Source: a virus
Length of the DNA: 22,526 nt
Direction: 5' to 3' (one strand)
IMG/VR virus record: IMGVR_UViG_3300031213_000018
Coordinates: 1-22,526 of that record
The notes below the pieces were generated by a model. It saw nothing but the letters and a program-made list of their open reading frames with translations. It had not been told where the DNA came from and ran no database searches. A program made the translations under genes and the position numbers. Positions 4,980-22,403 of this stretch are shown piece by piece. The stretch's first letter is position 1. Each line of letters starts with the position of its first letter.

Positions 4980-5573
4980 TTACCCCGTCAGTTGATACGC
5001 ATCGACGCCGATCTGTGCGGCGCGGCCGAAGCCGCCCAGCATCGAGGATCGCGCCTCGGACATGAGGCCCCGCGCACGAAGGCGGGACATTGCGGCGCGG
5101 TTGTCCGCGTTCTGCCTGGTCACGTCCAGGTTCCGCTCGGCCAGGCGCTTGGTGCTTTCGGCCACGTTCACCGGCGTGCCCACGCCAATGTCGAGCCCGT
5201 TGGCAAGCTGGATCACCTTTTGCTCGCCCGCCAGCTCGGCATATTCCCGCGCCAGGTCACGCGCCTGGCCCGCACCTGCCGCCTGTTCCTGGAGCGCCTG
5301 CGTCCTGGCGAACGCGGCCTGGTCCTTTGCTGCCCGGCTCGCGGCCACACCCTGCCCGATTGCCGCCAGGGCCGAGCCTGCGCTTAGAACCTGGGACAAC
5401 GTGACGACACCAGAGCCCGCCGCAGCGGCCCCAGCTCCTGCCGCCGCCCCTGCGCCAGCTCCCGCCGCAGCGGCCCCAGCTCCTGCCGCCGCCCCTGCGC
5501 CCGCAAACATTGTGCCGACGGAGGCGGCGGCGCTGGATATCGCCGTCCCGATTGCCATGAAAACTGTTGCCAT
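4980..5573 (-). CDS. Ala/Gly-rich internal virion protein (small core/ejection protein)
   Basis: This 197-residue protein has a hydrophobic N-terminus. Residues 1-23 are apolar and residues about 24-53 are almost only Ala and Gly in repeated GAGAAAGA blocks. A helical, Gln/Arg/Glu-rich second half follows (about 75-175), containing AERNLDVTRQNADNRAAMSR. The start ATG at 5573 has a strong GGAGG five bases upstream. The gene sits 9 bp after the nozzle gene and 3 bp before the transglycosylase gene, the place where T7-like phages encode their smaller internal virion proteins. The apolar N-terminus could insert in a membrane or line an ejection channel; this is inference. The Ala/Gly segment contains a perfect 45-bp-period DNA duplication. 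Confidence 0.75.
   Translation of the reverse strand: MATVFMAIGTAISSAAASVGTMFAGAGAAAGAGAAAAGAGAGAAAGAGAAAAGSGVVTLSQVLSAGSALAAIGQGVAASRAAKDQAAFARTQALQEQAAGAGQARDLAREYAELAGEQKVIQLANGLDIGVGTPVNVAESTKRLAERNLDVTRQNADNRAAMSRLRARGLMSEARSSMLGGFGRAAQIGVDAYQLTG
5416..5501. repeat. 45-bp-period tandem duplication in Ala/Gly segment
   Basis: Bases 5416-5456 and 5461-5501 are identical over 41 bases, with a period of 45 bp (15 codons). They encode the repeated Ala/Gly block at about residues 25-53 of the internal virion protein, so a change in copy number keeps the frame. Confidence 0.9.
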
Positions 5574-14705: not shown

Positions 14706-15066
14706 ATCCCTGATCCCCTTCCACTCGTCCGGCCCAATCGGCCTTTGCCACGGCACGCGCCGCCGCTCGTTTGTTCCCGCCCTCCTGGGCGCTCGATCCC
14801 TGGAGGTGGTGCGGCTTGAGATCGAGGTGGAACTCCTGAACGTCGATGCGGTGCCAGATACCAGCGAGGATCGGCAGCTTGCCGGACACTGTTCGGATGA
14901 AGGTCGAGCGGCGCATGTGGATGCGGCCCTTGCTGTCGGTCCTGACCACGCCAGAACGCGGCCACACGTCGTCGTCATGCACCATGAAGCTGGGCAACAT
15001 CGCCACGTTGCCTTTGCATGCGCGCATTAGCGACGGGATGGACAGGTCAAGATCGGGTTCGGTCAT
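14575..15066 (-). CDS. Unknown protein overlapping the GNAT-like gene
   Basis: I do not recognise this 163-residue protein. Its first ~100 residues look like a genuine conserved-type domain: SLMRACKGNVAMLPSFMVHD, a GVVRTDSKGRIHMRRSTFIR segment and LAGIWHRIDVQEFHLDLKPH. The last ~60 residues are Gly/Asp/Ala-rich and read like an out-of-frame sequence. Third-position G+C is 17 of 20 codons at 14761-14820, falling to 11 of 20 and then 8 of 20 in the next two 60-base blocks, while the GNAT-like frame rises. The ATG at 15066 overlaps the VRR-NUC stop (ATGA). The gene may have a degenerate tail, or a frameshift may join it to the GNAT-like gene. Confidence 0.6.
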   Translation of the reverse strand: MTEPDLDLSIPSLMRACKGNVAMLPSFMVHDDDVWPRSGVVRTDSKGRIHMRRSTFIRTVSGKLPILAGIWHRIDVQEFHLDLKPHHLQGSSAQEGGNKRAAARAVAKADWAGRVEGDQGYGTAPGGDHGQQDVARDVAEAKARGTSGSVGSTVFARDGGDDG

Positions 15067-15482
15067 GTCAGCCCCCATTGTTTCAAAATGGCCTCGGCCT
15101 CGGTCACGGATCTTACCACGGCATAGGGCGCACCAGCTCGCGCCAGATCACGCTGGATATCCTTTTGCGCATCGCTCTGTGGGCTCTTGGCCTTAATCTC
15201 CAGCCCGTAGAACCGGCCCTGCCAGATGATCTCGATATCTGTCCAGCCCGCCTTGGTGCCGAGCTTGCGCGCCTTGGCGATCTGGCGAGCCGCCTCGGGT
15301 CCGGCCATGTCCAGCTCGTTCGGGCTGTGGTGATAAATCGCGTCGGCCGGTAGCGCGAGATCGAGGAGCTGGAGGATCGCCTTGTGGATCGCCCCCTCGC
15401 GGTCCTGGCGCGGCGCGCTGTGGTCGCCGTCGGCCTTGTAGAACGCCTGGAGCTGGGCGGCTGTCATGCGGTTGCCGGTCAT
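15063..15482 (-). CDS. VRR-NUC domain nuclease
   Basis: This 139-residue protein is a single VRR-NUC (PD-(D/E)XK superfamily) nuclease domain. Visible motifs are an N-terminal helix with REGAIHKAILQLL (Glu29), GTKAGWTDIEII (Asp82), FYGLEIKAKS (Glu95-x-Lys97) and a following helix DAQKDIQRDLARAGAPYAVV with Gln106. Members cleave branched DNA such as Holliday junctions or flaps. In a phage this could resolve replication intermediates before packaging, comparable to T7 gp3, but that role is inference. The ATG at 15482 has GAGGA seven bases upstream and overlaps the preceding stop (ATGA); a second ATG at 15467 lacks a ribosome binding site. The gene lies in a chain of coupled small genes leading to the portal. 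Confidence 0.88.
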   Translation of the reverse strand: MTGNRMTAAQLQAFYKADGDHSAPRQDREGAIHKAILQLLDLALPADAIYHHSPNELDMAGPEAARQIAKARKLGTKAGWTDIEIIWQGRFYGLEIKAKSPQSDAQKDIQRDLARAGAPYAVVRSVTEAEAILKQWGLT

Positions 15483-15676
15483 AGCTTGTTCCTCGCCCAC
15501 TTGAGCGCATTGGCCAGACGGTCGCGTATGTCCTGGGTTGCGCTCGACTTCGGCCCCTTGCACGGGCATGGAGCAAGCGCGACCAGGAGCCCGTGGATTT
15601 CATCGGCCGGAACGTAGATCACGGCCATGCCGTTCTCGATCTTGACGTGGCCCCGCTTCTCGTCGCGCAGGCTCAT
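15479..15676 (-). CDS. Small conserved-type phage protein (CPCK motif)
   Basis: This 65-residue protein has an N-terminal beta-like part (HVKIENGMAVIYVPADEI) and ends with PCPCKGPKSSATQDIRDRL followed by a helix NALKWARNKL. The C-x-C/KSxAT-x-DIRxRLA pattern recurs in small, uncharacterised phage proteins. The two Cys could bind metal, but two are few. The ATG at 15676 overlaps the TGA of the 50-residue gene (ATGA), and its own stop overlaps the VRR-NUC start in the same way, so it belongs to the coupled chain. Function unknown. Confidence 0.72.
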   Translation of the reverse strand: MSLRDEKRGHVKIENGMAVIYVPADEIHGLLVALAPCPCKGPKSSATQDIRDRLANALKWARNKL

Positions 15677-15825
15677 GCCGACACCGCCGCGAAACATTGC
15701 ACCGCCACCCCGAGGAGCCCGGCGAAGTAATCCGCTGCCTCGGCACACTCCAGCGGCGTGGGATACGCTCCCAGCTCGGGCAGGCCCGGCATCATCGCAA
15801 TGGCCCTCCAGATTGCCTCGCTCAT
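15673..15825 (-). CDS. Short hypothetical protein (50 aa)
   Basis: This 50-residue protein starts MSEAIWRAIAMMPGLPELGAY and continues ECAEAADYFAGLLGVAVQC. It is mildly hydrophobic at the C-terminus but not clearly transmembrane. The start is fixed by ATGA overlaps with the genes on both sides and by GGGGAAAG directly upstream. No homology is recognised. It is accepted because it fills a tightly coupled operon without gaps. Confidence 0.6.
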   Translation of the reverse strand: MSEAIWRAIAMMPGLPELGAYPTPLECAEAADYFAGLLGVAVQCFAAVSA

Positions 15826-16091: not shown

Positions 16092-16136
16092 ATGCCTTGC
16101 GCAATGTGCGCCACACCCCATCGAAAGGAAATCACT

Positions 16137-16421
16137 ATGATAGGCAAAAAGTGTATCATCCGCTGCTATGCAAGCGGCGTCCATTACGGAACCGTTACCG
16201 CACAAGATGGTCGTCAAGTCACACTGGCAGACAGCCGCCGCCTATGGCGTTGGCACACCGGCGGGAGGGAAAAAGGCGTGAGCCTTAGCACAGTTGCGTT
16301 GACTGGCATCGACGCAGCTCGCAGCAAGGTTGAACCGGCTCTGCCTGAAATTATGCTGCTTGATGTGCTGGAAATCATCCCGGCGAGTAATGTGGCATCT
16401 GAAAGCATTGAGGGTGCATGA
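16137..16421 (+). CDS. DUF6948-like small phage protein
   Basis: This 94-residue protein starts MIGKKCIIRCYASGVHYGTV and has TLADSRRLWRW, SLSTVALTGIDAARSKV and a late LPEIMLLDVLEIIPASN. I recognise the pattern G(V/N)xYGTVxxxxGxxVxLxxxRRLWxW with a final EIIP from widespread phage proteins annotated as DUF6948; the exact DUF number should be confirmed. Function is unknown. The ATG at 16137 has AAGGA seven bases upstream; an earlier in-frame ATG at 16092 lies on the promoter and was not used. Unlike every other gene except its partner, it is on the plus strand. G+C is about 52% in 16141-16200, much lower than in the structural genes. It overlaps the next gene by ATGA. Confidence 0.82.
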   Translation: MIGKKCIIRCYASGVHYGTVTAQDGRQVTLADSRRLWRWHTGGREKGVSLSTVALTGIDAARSKVEPALPEIMLLDVLEIIPASNVASESIEGA

Positions 16422-16675
16422 TGATGCAGTCATTCGAGTACTATGAAAACGACGGCTACGGCTCCGGCTACGGCTACGGCTACGGCTCCGGCTCCGGCTA
16501 CGGCTCCGGCGACGGCGAAGGCTACGGCTCCGGCTACGGCGAAGGCTCCGGCTCCGGCTCCGGCTACGGCTCCGGCTGCGGCTCCGGCTACGGCTCCGGC
16601 TCCGGCTCCGGCTACGGCTACGGCGACGGCGAAGGCTACGGCGAAGGCTACGGCGACGGCTCCGGCGACGGCTGA
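16418..16675 (+). CDS. Low-complexity X-Gly dipeptide repeat protein
   Basis: This 85-residue protein has an 11-residue leader (MMMQSFEYYEN) followed by 37 uninterrupted X-Gly dipeptides to the end. X is Ser 14 times, Tyr 13, Asp 5, Glu 4 and Cys once; no other residue occurs. Gly is always encoded by GGC. The start overlaps the stop of the DUF6948-like gene (ATGA), with AGGG a few bases upstream; two further ATGs follow in frame. Similar Tyr/Ser/Gly repeat proteins occur beside DUF6948-type genes in other phages, as far as I recall. It has no domain, signal peptide or membrane segment and is expected to be disordered and acidic. Its composition resembles the [G/S]Y[G/S] segments of condensate-forming proteins; function is unknown. 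Confidence 0.75.
   Translation: MMMQSFEYYENDGYGSGYGYGYGSGSGYGSGDGEGYGSGYGEGSGSGSGYGSGCGSGYGSGSGSGYGYGDGEGYGEGYGDGSGDG
16451..16672 (+). repeat. 37-copy hexanucleotide-type repeat (NNN-GGC)
   Basis: Every six bases the pattern is a variable codon (TAC, TCC, GAC, GAA or once TGC) followed by GGC, 222 bp in total. The period keeps the reading frame whatever the copy number, so slippage would change length but not frame. Confidence 0.97.
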
Positions 16676-16698: not shown

Positions 16699-16724
16699 TA
16701 AGCCCGGTTTGCGCCGGGCTTTTT
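16699..16724. terminator. Bidirectional Rho-independent terminator between convergent genes
   Basis: AGCCCGG (16701-16707) pairs with CCGGGCT (16714-16720) across a 6-base loop. On the plus strand TTTT follows after the repeat gene. On the minus strand, just after the terL stop at 16725, the hairpin is followed by TAATATTTTTT, so it can serve both convergent transcripts. Confidence 0.85.
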
Positions 16725-18365
16725 CTATGCAAACACGTCAAAATCGCCATCCGCTTGGAACGATCCGCCGCCTTTTCCGTCAGTCCTGCGCCCGCCGAGC
16801 CGGTCAAATTCACCCACGCCGAGGAAGCCATAGCCCGCCCCGTCGCAAATGTGGCTTTCGTCGTTCTTGGAGGGTTTGTCGGCGTAGCGATCCTCGCCCG
16901 TGACCGCCAGACGCTTGAAGTGCCACGCCCCCATCAGCCCCTTGTGCAGCATCGGGCAGTGTCGCTTGTTCAGCAAGAGCCCAGGCTTGCCGTCGATCAT
17001 CCGCTCGCATGGCCCGGCCAGAGCCGCGATCCTCATCTTCGGGTCTTGGGTTGGCGCGGGCTCCAGGTTGATCCCGTGTTGCGTGCGCAGCCAGTCGAAG
17101 CTGGCCGTCTCGAATATCTCGTCACGCTTTCCGCCTGCTGGATCGCCCCACCCTGTTCCGGTCAGCCCTCTGGCCACATGATCCGGGAAATGCTTGACCA
17201 ACGCCTCACCGACTAGCTCGCCAAATCGCTTGATCCCCATATCGAAACAAACCACCTCTCGGTGTGCCAGGAGCGGGCCGCGCGGATGCTTCTGAAACAG
17301 GAGCGCCGAGGGCTGTAGCGTGCCGCCGCCAATGTCTGCCCCGATAAACACCGGCTCGTCAGGCAGGATCGGCAGGTGATCGACGCCATGCACCTGGCCG
17401 TTGTATTGCGGGACCACGCGCCGCCCGTCCGTCACGAACGTGTAGACGCCCTGGAGATAGCTTTGGATTTCCTCCAGCGTCTTACCTGCCAACGCGCGGC
17501 CGTAGTAGCTCCGCACCCCAAGCGGGTTCGATCCAGCATCGACGCGGGATAGCGCCACAAGGTTCTCCTGCCAAGGGTTCACGATCCAGAGCCGATCAGC
17601 AGCACGGATCACCTCAATCGGACACTCGACCCGGCGCGTCTTGCCTCGATAGTAGATCAGCACCTCGGCCGATGTGAGGCGCACGCCTTGGTAGTCTGGG
17701 AAATTCTCGTCGATGATCTCGGCACCGTTGCCACGCGGCCGCACCTCCAGGACGCCGGGCGGTTGCTGGTGGAAGTGATAACCTTCTGGCGTCTCGCGGT
17801 GGTGCCAGCCATAGAGCCAATGATCTGCGTCCGGCGGGTTGGTGTCGCCCCAGATGCCGCTCCAGGTGGTTGGCCGCTCGTTCACCCCGAACCGGCCCAC
17901 GCGCTCGGTCAGCCTGGTGATAACTGATCTGGGCACCTCGCGCATCTCGTTGATGAAGGCCCCGGTTAGCTCCAGCGATAGGAGCTTCTTCACGTCCTTT
18001 GGCTTGTCGAGCGCGATCAGGTTGACCTCGATCTCCAGGCCGGAGTTGCGCGGCTGGATCATGTGCGTAGCCGGTGACCTCCAGATGATATCCCCAAACG
18101 CATCCGAGGGATAAATCTGCTGATAGGTCACGGCCGTCGTTGATCGCAGCTCGGGCATGGTGTTTCGGATCACCGCGAACCTGGAGCGGCGCTTGCCGTC
18201 CTCGCTGGGCGCTTGCTCTTGGCCTAGATCAAGGATGCGTTGAAGGCTGGGCACCGACTTGCCGGAGCCGACCGGCCCGATGATGAAGCTCCCAAAGCTG
18301 CGATCCTGTTTGTACTTCCAGGCGACAGGCGACGTGGTGTAATCCCAGGTTGAGCTTGTCACCAT
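16725..18365 (-). CDS. terL: Terminase large subunit (packaging ATPase/nuclease)
   Basis: This 546-residue protein is the DNA-packaging motor and headful or end-generating nuclease. The ATPase half shows Walker A GPVGSGKS (30-37) and a Walker B with catalytic Glu, LELTGAFINE (131-140, Glu140). The nuclease half shows VFIGADIGGG (Asp344), GTGWGDPAGGKRDE (Asp408) and SHICDGAGYG (His505, Asp508), the RNase H-like acidic triad region. The ATG at 18365 was chosen because the 33 residues before it, from an ATG at 18464, are not family-like and overlap the fibre gene; no good ribosome binding site is seen at either start. The small subunit is not adjacent but six genes upstream, which is unusual. 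Confidence 0.94.
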   Translation of the reverse strand: MVTSSTWDYTTSPVAWKYKQDRSFGSFIIGPVGSGKSVPSLQRILDLGQEQAPSEDGKRRSRFAVIRNTMPELRSTTAVTYQQIYPSDAFGDIIWRSPATHMIQPRNSGLEIEVNLIALDKPKDVKKLLSLELTGAFINEMREVPRSVITRLTERVGRFGVNERPTTWSGIWGDTNPPDADHWLYGWHHRETPEGYHFHQQPPGVLEVRPRGNGAEIIDENFPDYQGVRLTSAEVLIYYRGKTRRVECPIEVIRAADRLWIVNPWQENLVALSRVDAGSNPLGVRSYYGRALAGKTLEEIQSYLQGVYTFVTDGRRVVPQYNGQVHGVDHLPILPDEPVFIGADIGGGTLQPSALLFQKHPRGPLLAHREVVCFDMGIKRFGELVGEALVKHFPDHVARGLTGTGWGDPAGGKRDEIFETASFDWLRTQHGINLEPAPTQDPKMRIAALAGPCERMIDGKPGLLLNKRHCPMLHKGLMGAWHFKRLAVTGEDRYADKPSKNDESHICDGAGYGFLGVGEFDRLGGRRTDGKGGGSFQADGDFDVFA

Positions 18366-18417
18366 TGCAGGTCGTTTGGAACTCGCGTCAGCCCCATCGC
18401 GGTGATCGCTGCCACGC

Positions 18418-19197
18418 TCACAGCACAACGCCTCTTTTTTCTGCGTAGTATTGCCGGGCATCACTACGCTGTTGTGCCGTCAGTAGCTTGTCGATGAATG
18501 TGCAGCCGTAGAACTCGGCATTGCCCCAAACACTGTTGGCGATCCGTCCGATGTAGAGCGGGCCGATACCAGTGTTCACGATATTTGACCCCGAGGCGTT
18601 CTCGTCCGTTGTGCCGTTGGACAGGACATGGTCGCCCAATGTGCCCCCATCCGGAAGGCGGATACCGACCACGCCGTCTGATGAAAGCCCGGAGACATAC
18701 GCGCTGCCTGCGATCTCGACACGCAGATTGCCGTTATCGTCCCGCACGGTCCACCGCTCGCCGATATCGCCCCCGATGTTGAGCGTGAACACAGCACCCC
18801 CCGGACCGAAGGCGCCGATATATTCCCGCGTGCTGTTGCCGCTTACATTGATGTTGGACTGCGTGACCAGTTCATCATTTTCGGCACCGGCGAACTCAAG
18901 GTAATAGTTACCGTTTCCATCTTGTCGCAGCACAGGGGATGCAGACAAGGAAGGGCTTTGTGCGTCGTTTCCGTTCCCTGACTTGTCCGCGATGAACCGG
19001 ACCACATCCCCGACTGCGGGCACACTGCCGGACTGGTCCGGCTCCGTGTTCATGCTGGACAGATCGGATACATCGTAGAAGACCCCTGACTCGCTTCCCG
19101 TGAACAGATCAGCGGGGTCAAACGCGCGGAGCTGACCAAACGCGCGGAGCTGACCAAACGGCGAAACAATGCCAAAGGGAGACGGAACCCGCAGCAT
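18418..19197 (-). CDS. Fibre-like protein with LamG-like domain
   Basis: This 259-residue protein begins with SPFG motifs (residues 6-9 and 12-15). LFTGSESGVFYDVSDLSSM (about 31-49) follows, and VGDVVRFIADKSGNGNDA (about 62-79). The VGD-x-x-x-x-x-DKSGNGN pattern, with NYYLEFAG and a C-terminal GPLYIGRIAN and FYGCTFIDKLLTAQQRS, is that of concanavalin/LamG-like domains found in phage fibre or appendage proteins. It is likely a receptor- or glycan-binding virion protein; the target is unknown. The ATG at 19197 shares a base with the preceding TAA (TAATG). G+C is lower than in the core genes, and an 18-bp duplication lies in the N-terminal linker, so recombinational exchange is plausible. Confidence 0.78.
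   Translation of the reverse strand: MLRVPSPFGIVSPFGQLRAFGQLRAFDPADLFTGSESGVFYDVSDLSSMNTEPDQSGSVPAVGDVVRFIADKSGNGNDAQSPSLSASPVLRQDGNGNYYLEFAGAENDELVTQSNINVSGNSTREYIGAFGPGGAVFTLNIGGDIGERWTVRDDNGNLRVEIAGSAYVSGLSSDGVVGIRLPDGGTLGDHVLSNGTTDENASGSNIVNTGIGPLYIGRIANSVWGNAEFYGCTFIDKLLTAQQRSDARQYYAEKRGVVL
19123..19158. repeat. 18-bp tandem duplication in fibre N-terminus
   Basis: The 18-base unit CGCGCGGAGCTGACCAAA at 19123-19140 is repeated exactly at 19141-19158. It duplicates six codons and yields FGQLRA twice in the linker before the LamG-like domain. Confidence 0.93.
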
Positions 19198-20851: not shown

Positions 20852-21317
20852 CGTCGTCTCCTTCCGGTTGCCATTTCGGGATCGCTTTCGAAGCCTCCAC
20901 TGCTGCTGGCGGGATCACTTTCACCTCGAAGCCGTCGCCAGTGCCGCCTTCTCGATCCTCTCGGCCGTAGCCGTGGTTCACCTCCAGGGCGAACTTTGCC
21001 CCGTTCGATGCCTCCCTGACATACAGCGCTTCCTCTGCAAATTCTGCGATCCGCATCTTGGCGCGTGCGATGATCGGGACAAATGCCGGATCGCGTGGCT
21101 CGTCTCCCCTGCCATATGCCAAGAGGGTTTGCCTGGTGGTGTCCAGTGCGAGTGCCAGCCCTGCCATGGTTGGGGGAACTTGGTAATCTTCCTCGTATGG
21201 CTCGCCATCGCGGGGATAGATTTTGCGCTTGCGCGTCCTGCTTTGAAAATAGTCCTCAATTCGTTGCTCCAGCTCCTCGGGATCGGTGAAGGCGAGCTGC
21301 CCGCGCTTTGCCATCAT
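20844..21317 (-). CDS. terS: Terminase small subunit (gp3-type DNA packaging protein)
   Basis: This 157-residue protein has a helix-turn-helix-like PTMAGLALALDTTRQTLLAY (about 49-68) and the segment YVREASNGAKFALEVNHGYG (about 98-117), typical of the gp3-type small terminase subunit. It recognises phage DNA and hands it to the large subunit. The protein begins MMAKRGQLAF; either of the two adjacent ATGs (21317 or 21314) is possible, with GAGGAGG just upstream and the preceding TGA overlapping both. The large subunit is not next to it but 2.5 kb further on, behind six accessory genes. The N-terminal basic part (RTRKRKIYPR) may contact DNA. Confidence 0.88.
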   Translation of the reverse strand: MMAKRGQLAFTDPEELEQRIEDYFQSRTRKRKIYPRDGEPYEEDYQVPPTMAGLALALDTTRQTLLAYGRGDEPRDPAFVPIIARAKMRIAEFAEEALYVREASNGAKFALEVNHGYGREDREGGTGDGFEVKVIPPAAVEASKAIPKWQPEGDDDE

Positions 21318-22180
21318 GCCCCTCCTCGTTCTGCCAGGCGCTGCCGCAGGTGTGCGAGCGCTTCATCCCCGATGTTCTTCATGCCGCCCGACCGACCGCT
21401 ATCAGCGGGCGGGGAGGGAGGGCGGCTTTGCGGACCCTCTCCCCCCTGCACCCCCCTCTCCGTGGTCTTGGTCTTATCCGTGGTCTTGGTCTTATCCTTC
21501 TCCGTTGTCTTTTCCGTTGTCTTTTCCGTTTCCGTTGTATCGCTAGGGCTATGGATAGGGGTATGCGATAGGGGTATAAGTAGGGCTTCCCCGAGACGGT
21601 CGAGCGTGCGTGCGTCGAGCCCGATTTCCTGCGACGTGAGCATGGGTTCGAGCTTCATTTCCTTGACGATATCCGCCGCCGTGCTGTCGAAGCCGCCCAT
21701 CGCTTCCAGGATTTTCCCGGCCTCGGTGTGATCGCTGCGGTGTTCGCTGCGCTTGAGCCGGCTCGCTTTCTCGTTCCACTCCTCGCGGCGCTCGAACATT
21801 GCCAGGATCAGATCGCACGCGGCGCAATCCCTGACCGGAGAATGTGGCAGCGCCTGGATGATGCGAACCGGCCCGGCCAGGTGCTTGCGGCTGGAGATCG
21901 CGTTGAAGCGGAAGAAGTTGACGATCTGGATCAGCTCCTCCTCGGGATCGTATCGGATCAGGCGAGCCTCGGCCAATTCGATGAACGCGGCGCGCACCTC
22001 GTCGGCCGGAACTTTCAGCTCAAGCGCGGCCATTTCTGGCGGCAGGACGAACGCCCCGGCGCTGTTGCCGTGCGTGGTGGTGTGCAGGTAGAGGTAGGTC
22101 AGCCGGGCCAGGTCCGAGCCGAGCTGTCGAAACCGCTTGCTGCGCCAGATTGAACTGGAGATGATGCCGAACTGTCTCAC
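21314..22180 (-). CDS. Replication-initiator-like protein with Lys/Thr/Glu-rich linker
   Basis: This 288-residue protein starts at GTG 22180 with MRQFGIISSSIWRSKRFRQL, and its first ~150 residues (DLARLTYLYLHTTTHGNSAG, then EVRAAFIELAEARLIRYD) form a winged-helix-like pattern like phage O-type or replisome-organiser proteins. A Cys-containing RDCAACDLILAM is in the middle. The C-terminal third is low complexity, rich in Thr, Lys and Glu, with DNA repeats. The GTG was chosen over an ATG at 22285 because the earlier residues look unlike a protein and overlap the preceding gene; AGGGCGG lies about seven bases upstream. It is tightly followed by terS. The initiator role is likely but not proven. 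Confidence 0.72.
   Translation of the reverse strand: MRQFGIISSSIWRSKRFRQLGSDLARLTYLYLHTTTHGNSAGAFVLPPEMAALELKVPADEVRAAFIELAEARLIRYDPEEELIQIVNFFRFNAISSRKHLAGPVRIIQALPHSPVRDCAACDLILAMFERREEWNEKASRLKRSEHRSDHTEAGKILEAMGGFDSTAADIVKEMKLEPMLTSQEIGLDARTLDRLGEALLIPLSHTPIHSPSDTTETEKTTEKTTEKDKTKTTDKTKTTERGVQGGEGPQSRPPSPPADSGRSGGMKNIGDEALAHLRQRLAERGGA
21460..21525. repeat. Tandem repeats in the linker of the replication-like gene
   Basis: The 18-base unit CCGTGGTCTTGGTCTTAT occurs twice (21460-21477, 21478-21495). The 12-base CCGTTGTCTTTT occurs twice (21502-21513, 21514-21525). They encode the Lys/Thr/Glu-rich linker. Confidence 0.9.
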
Positions 22181-22184
22181 GGGA

Positions 22185-22403
22185 TCACCGCCCTGACGGT
22201 TCCGGCACCGCCTCCAGGCTATCCACCAGGGCGCGGATCGCATCGCCCTTCGACTTCCAGAGGTGATAGCTCGCGCCGCTGGCACGCTTCATCTCTGTTT
22301 CGGATAGCCCGGAGCCACCGGCCAAGATGATCTTGACCGCAGCTCCCAGCACGTTGAGATCGGCGGCCATGACTGGCCCCGCGTTGTGAATGTGCATGCT
22401 CAT
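22185..22403 (-). CDS. Small hypothetical protein (72 aa)
   Basis: This 72-residue protein begins MSMHIHNAGPVMAADLN and carries LGAAVKIILAGGSGLSETEM with KRASGASYHLWKSKGDAIRA, which looks like two or three helices, possibly a small DNA-binding domain. The ATG at 22403 overlaps the stop of the upstream gene (ATGA). An ATG two codons later (22397) has a better-spaced GAAGG and is a possible alternative. Its stop is five bases before the replication-like GTG, so the two are likely coupled. No family recognised. Confidence 0.62.
   Translation of the reverse strand: MSMHIHNAGPVMAADLNVLGAAVKIILAGGSGLSETEMKRASGASYHLWKSKGDAIRALVDSLEAVPEPSGR

Follow-up and report, generated by a model that had tools for sequence, protein, structure and literature searches.

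A hypervariable X-Gly repeat gene is paired with DUF6948, a predicted Sm-fold gene, in diverse phages

What does a phage do with a small gene that encodes almost nothing but dipeptides ending in glycine, and with which partner, if any, does its product act? These questions are raised by a 22,526-nucleotide stretch of viral DNA (the complete IMG/VR record IMGVR_UViG_3300031213_000018; hereafter "the window", the whole stretch that was analysed, listed as L009 among our loci). A preliminary description made from the letters alone had picked out 37 unbroken X-Gly units at 16451–16672 on the plus strand, covering 74 of 85 residues, in which X is Ser 14, Tyr 13, Asp 5, Glu 4 and Cys 1 times and every Gly is encoded by GGC. 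The sequence, the list of open reading frames (ORFs) and a unit-by-unit codon count bear this out in full, and TRF detects 37 copies with a period of 6 at the same place. The gene itself (16418–16675, plus strand) starts with a non-repeat N-terminus, MMMQSFEYYEN (16418–16450), to which related loci have similar F-E-x-Y-E motifs (MFEGYE, RFEDYE or FEDFE), and it ends with a TGA stop codon at 16673–16675. Searches of the repeat protein against Pfam, PHROGs, NCBIfam and PADLOC returned low-complexity noise only (TrAA12, CFAP143 and KRTAP), in agreement with the earlier statement that no function is established for such phage proteins, since none is described in the libraries searched.

The start codon of the repeat gene overlaps the stop codon (ATGA) of the gene directly upstream, which encodes a 94-residue member of DUF6948 (PF22253; E = 1.5e-24, 86.4 bits against a cut-off of 27) at 16137–16421 on the plus strand and is preceded by a Shine-Dalgarno-like AAAGGA at 16124–16129. 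Both neighbors of this pair, a nuclease-like gene (15063–15569) and a large-terminase-like gene (16725–18464), lie on the minus strand, so that the pair is opposite to them in direction. Between the convergent repeat and terminase genes sits a terminator-like hairpin with a T tail (16700–16721, plus strand), one of two instances found by a pattern match that is expected to give 1.7 in shuffled sequence. The phage is a tailed virus with a podovirus-type head-tail connector (PF12236), and megablast of the whole window against phages found no match. A close relative, L018, lacks a 280-base stretch matching window positions 15516–15795, so that the genes immediately upstream of the pair vary. The window holds two other repeats, both in minus-strand ORFs: a short Lys/Thr-rich tandem repeat (TEKTTEKDKTKTTDKTKTTE) at 21459–21530 in the ORF 21314–22285, and nearly two exact copies of a 45-base unit, coding for an Ala/Gly-rich stretch, at 5416–5501 in the ORF 4980–5573.

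The array of the window is more than a product of chance, because X-Gly arrays recur at the same gene position in 124 further non-redundant phage ORFs. We surveyed this association in both directions. Forward, 80 IMG/VR loci with DUF6948 were inspected, of which four lie on contigs that end within 23 bases after this gene. Among the 76 that continue, 72 have an array gene downstream, i.e., an uninterrupted same-strand X-Gly array in 70 and a Gly-rich array with some Gly-Gly in two (L019 and L020), while four have none; an antisense match in L025 was left out of this count. The array gene starts within −25 to +40 nucleotides of the DUF6948 end in 124 of 125 non-redundant pairs, most commonly at offsets of −17, −13, −4 and −1. 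In the reverse direction, a degenerate repeat pattern gave 72 array loci whose upstream sequence is long enough, and DUF6948 is directly upstream in 49 of them. Of the remaining 23, 16 have a short divergent DUF6948-like gene, for which hhalign support ranges from strong (96.5%) to weak (23%) depending on the group, and one is a natural fusion (L113), in which a DUF6948 core is followed by 44 X-Gly units in a single ORF. No recognisable upstream partner was seen at the array genes of L134, L145, L153, L185, L204 and possibly L192. Taken together, the pairing, the overlap and the fusion imply a joint function, and DUF6948 and the array gene appear from their arrangement to form a widespread, translationally coupled two-gene phage module.

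The pair occurs in phages and prophages of alpha-, beta- and gammaproteobacteria, Chlorobi, Bacteroidetes and others. The same gene order is found in the Pectobacterium phages Taid and Setonix, Vibrio phage IKEMa6-1, Chlorobiaceae phage CV-1-33 and Iodobacter phage PhiPLPE as well as in genomes of Nitrosomonas, Neisseria sicca, N. gonorrhoeae, Sphingomonas, Bacteroidetes and others. The pair is not confined to a single type of phage: of 19 related viral records, several of them fragments, just one has the connector family of the window. Pfam assigns DUF6948 no function, we found no paper naming this family, and literature searches on DUF6948, on the repeat strings and on Gly-rich dipeptide repeats of phages gave no description of the pair. 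The coupled pair, the Sm-like fold of DUF6948 discussed below and the linked repeat gene are thus not described in the literature or the family libraries that we searched. Array genes also occur in other arrangements. L134 has, at positions 1660–2971, a tandem run of five overlapping array genes without any DUF6948 gene; they share their ends (MGLKAFLKFG ... EPNLTSAGATVVEE), but their arrays differ from copy to copy. In L006, L007, L102, L139, L140, L165, L183, L186, L237 and L243, carried by gut-type phages and Bacteroidetes, the X-Gly array is followed by a conserved domain of ca. 155 residues with an LTGSC..GR motif, for which AlphaFold2 (AF2) gave a pLDDT of 86 and for which no match was found in Pfam or the PDB.

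Across the family, homologues keep both the frame and the residue restriction, whose free loss would have counted as a refutation of the preliminary description. X is Ser, Tyr or Asp in 91% of 3,993 units (39%, 28% and 24%, respectively), followed by Asn, Phe and His, so that the restriction proposed in the preliminary description is conserved for Ser, Tyr and Asp, while Glu and Cys are minor (19 and 18 of 3,993 units). Among the 98 arrays of 20 or more units, 97 have all three main residues; Tyr, regularly spaced by Gly and Ser, is found in 97 of these 98 and makes up a mean 28% of X. The array protein is acidic (median pI 4.05, net charge −8), and the share of Asp and Glu rises from 21% in the first to 33% in the last fifth of the arrays (p = 1e-6). 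A weak cyclic preference for the unit order S-Y-D-S was also seen among the 125 DUF6948-linked arrays (1204 SY, YD and DS steps versus 972 reversed, p = 7e-7; 58 arrays versus 33), which are not fully independent of each other.

At the level of DNA, X is diverse within a locus while synonymous third bases show hardly any variation: the first and second positions of the hexamer have mean diversities of 0.44 and 0.49, versus 0.075 for the third and sixth. In L035, for example, all 70 glycines are GGC, combined with TCC, TAC, GAC and one AAC. Which third base is uniform varies by locus, resulting in six codon dialects, e.g., TCC/GGC, TCT/GGC, TCC/GGG or AGC/GGA (L055), and Ser is mostly encoded by AGY in six loci, an indication that selection acts on the protein. 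The X-Gly frame was chosen as the one richest in Ser, Tyr and Asp, and the informative part is hence that the shares of these residues are similar across the main dialects in this frame, whereas the other five frames change their residues. An antisense reading of the array as an RS-rich ORF of 149 residues was rejected, because across the codon dialects only the X-Gly frame keeps its residues.

The order of units is far less constant than their composition. The preliminary description had argued that a six-base period allows in-frame length change, and near-identical phages indeed differ by whole six-base units. In the Pectobacterium phages Ymer and Amona, the repeat gene is flanked by 5,761 bases without a difference (4,057 on one side of it, 1,704 on the opposite side), but their arrays of 30 and 27 units are 12 unit edits apart, compared to a mean of 16.5 for shuffled arrays. 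The window and L011 share 99% identity over the upstream 400 bases with an array edit distance of 21 versus 21.7 when shuffled, L042 and L043 have 99.75% flank identity with a distance of 16 versus 16.4, and the arrays of L071 and L073 are likewise about as different as shuffled ones, while those of L068 and L082 are a simple block deletion apart. Genomes of the Ymer type were assembled from short reads (PMC11445585), and some of the array variation may thus be assembly error where arrays approach or exceed the length of a read. Arrays are identical between Ymer and Abuela and between the window and L010, which indicates that assembly can reproduce them. Many metagenome contigs (L014, L018, L025, L029, L046, L050, L052, L053, L054 and L072) break off inside the array or shortly upstream of it, which would be expected if arrays vary within the population or disrupt assembly.

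We simulated turnover by in-phase duplication, deletion and exchange of units together with point mutation. With the arbitrary parameters used, the mixture of Ser, Tyr and Asp disappeared from all 32 runs that lacked selection on the mixture and persisted in all 32 that included it, and third positions became more homogeneous than X. Selection therefore apparently maintains the mixture of Ser, Tyr and Asp while the order of units is free, as judged from the arrays and these simulations.

The partner gene offers a structural clue. An AlphaFold2 model of DUF6948 based on 61 homologues is of high confidence (pLDDT 94.9, pTM 0.87), and the best 50 Foldseek matches in the PDB are all Sm/Lsm proteins, e.g., archaeal Sm 1i8f with a TM score of 0.75 (by target) and an rmsd of 1.9 Å, at modest E-values (2e-3). 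DUF6948 proteins and Sm-like proteins of cyanophages are among the viral fold matches. A DUF6948 profile search of PDB sequences found no Sm protein, and the Asp-x-x-Met-Asn (DxxMN) RNA contact of the Sm1 motif was not seen in the DUF6948 alignment. The model thus supports DUF6948 as a predicted Sm/Lsm/Hfq-fold protein, with membership by fold and not by Sm1/Sm2 motifs or profile, and RNA binding would follow by analogy to this fold. The core is near neutral, with a median pI of 7.9 and a net charge of only about +1.

How could such a pair work? The nearest worked-out analogue is Hfq of Acinetobacter baumannii, in which an Sm core continues into a disordered C-terminal domain that is built of GGFGGQ repeats and has an acidic tip; its RNA affinity, its autoregulation and fitness all respond to the number of repeats (PMC11617691). 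The phage pair would have in common with it an Sm-fold core and a Gly-repeat low-complexity chain with an acid-enriched end. However, the Hfq tail acts in cis and is conserved between strains (PMC11617691), whereas the phage tail is encoded by a separate coupled gene, consists of X-Gly dipeptides and is hypervariable in order, and the phage core lacks sequence-level Sm homology. Core and Gly repeats form one polypeptide only in L113 and are encoded by separate overlapping genes in the window. Based on this analogy, we favor, with a probability of roughly 40%, that the array protein is an acidic, Tyr-bearing, Gly-rich detachable tail that acts in trans on an Sm-like core. The DUF6948 gene would make the small core protein, and the translationally coupled second gene would make a disordered, Gly-spaced polypeptide of interspersed Tyr, Ser and Asp with extra acid near its end, which may compete for or cluster complexes of the core with RNA or another partner. 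We thus infer that the two proteins interact physically and that RNA binding and condensation could be involved. If the function of the tail were set by composition and length rather than order, the array would be free to gain, lose and exchange units in frame, while selection would keep the Ser/Tyr/Asp mixture as the six-base units are reshuffled.

The main rival reading is that the array protein is a stand-alone former of condensates or hydrogels that concentrates phage or host factors, with DUF6948 as a client recruiting it. This is possible but in our view rather improbable. A composition of Tyr as stickers, Gly and Ser as spacers and Asp for solubility would fit the observed shares, as would Gly at every second residue, Phe as a minor substitute (62 of 3,993 units) and an order that is free while composition is kept. 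Like the eukaryotic [G/S]Y[G/S] domains of the FUS type, the arrays space Tyr by Gly or Ser and tolerate changes in order; unlike them, they are strictly alternating, have Asp at about one quarter of X and form a separate small phage protein. However, they are short (commonly 20–45 units) and contain no Arg or Lys partners.

Less likely still, hypervariability itself could be the function, as in a fast-changing decoy or bait that evades recognition by host defenses or titrates a host factor. This would suit arrays that differ as much as shuffled ones between near-identical phages (the window and L011, L042 and L043) or by 12 edits despite identical flanks (Ymer and Amona). However, only three residue types in similar proportions everywhere provide little diversity for recognition, this reading does not explain why the array gene is so tightly coupled to one with an Sm fold, and PADLOC gave no match.

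A silk-like (GX)n beta-structure serving as matrix or adhesive is very unlikely. In the heavy chain of Bombyx fibroin, Gly strictly alternates with an X that is mainly Ala next to Ser and Tyr. The phage arrays share this alternation with Ser and Tyr but nearly exclude Ala (21 of 3,993 units), though it is one base away from Ser and Asp codons, which disfavors the matrix or adhesive role suggested earlier. In addition, Asp is high, and the array gene has no linkage to virion genes, being found in many phage types and near recombination genes in Ymer. For a substrate of Tyr modification, also suggested earlier, no specific support was found. We give just as little credit to a neutral microsatellite expanded by slippage: the six-base unit, fast length change and homogenised third positions would agree with it, but simulated neutral turnover loses the residue mixture, unrelated phages with different codon dialects, some with AGY serines, preserve both frame and residue set, and the starts are coupled in all but one pair. 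Finally, targeted hypermutation of hexamer positions 1–2 could explain third positions that are nearly fixed within loci, but it is not needed because unit shuffling with selection on the mixture simulates a similar pattern.

The preliminary description was thus right about an array of variable length but missed that it is half of a pair with the Sm-fold DUF6948, that its order is hypervariable and that its composition appears to be selected. The pair unites two orphan phage families and gives DUF6948 a predicted fold. It also provides a natural experiment on low-complexity proteins, with more than 100 distinct arrays of free order and conserved composition next to a compact Sm-like partner. 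Since the pair is present in many phages and prophages, including those of Neisseria gonorrhoeae, its function is testable in laboratory phage-host systems. Tentatively, these arrays may represent a class of phage proteins in which selection sees composition but not order, and a detachable tail on an Sm-like core would make the pair a two-part RNA regulator or ribonucleoprotein condensate system.
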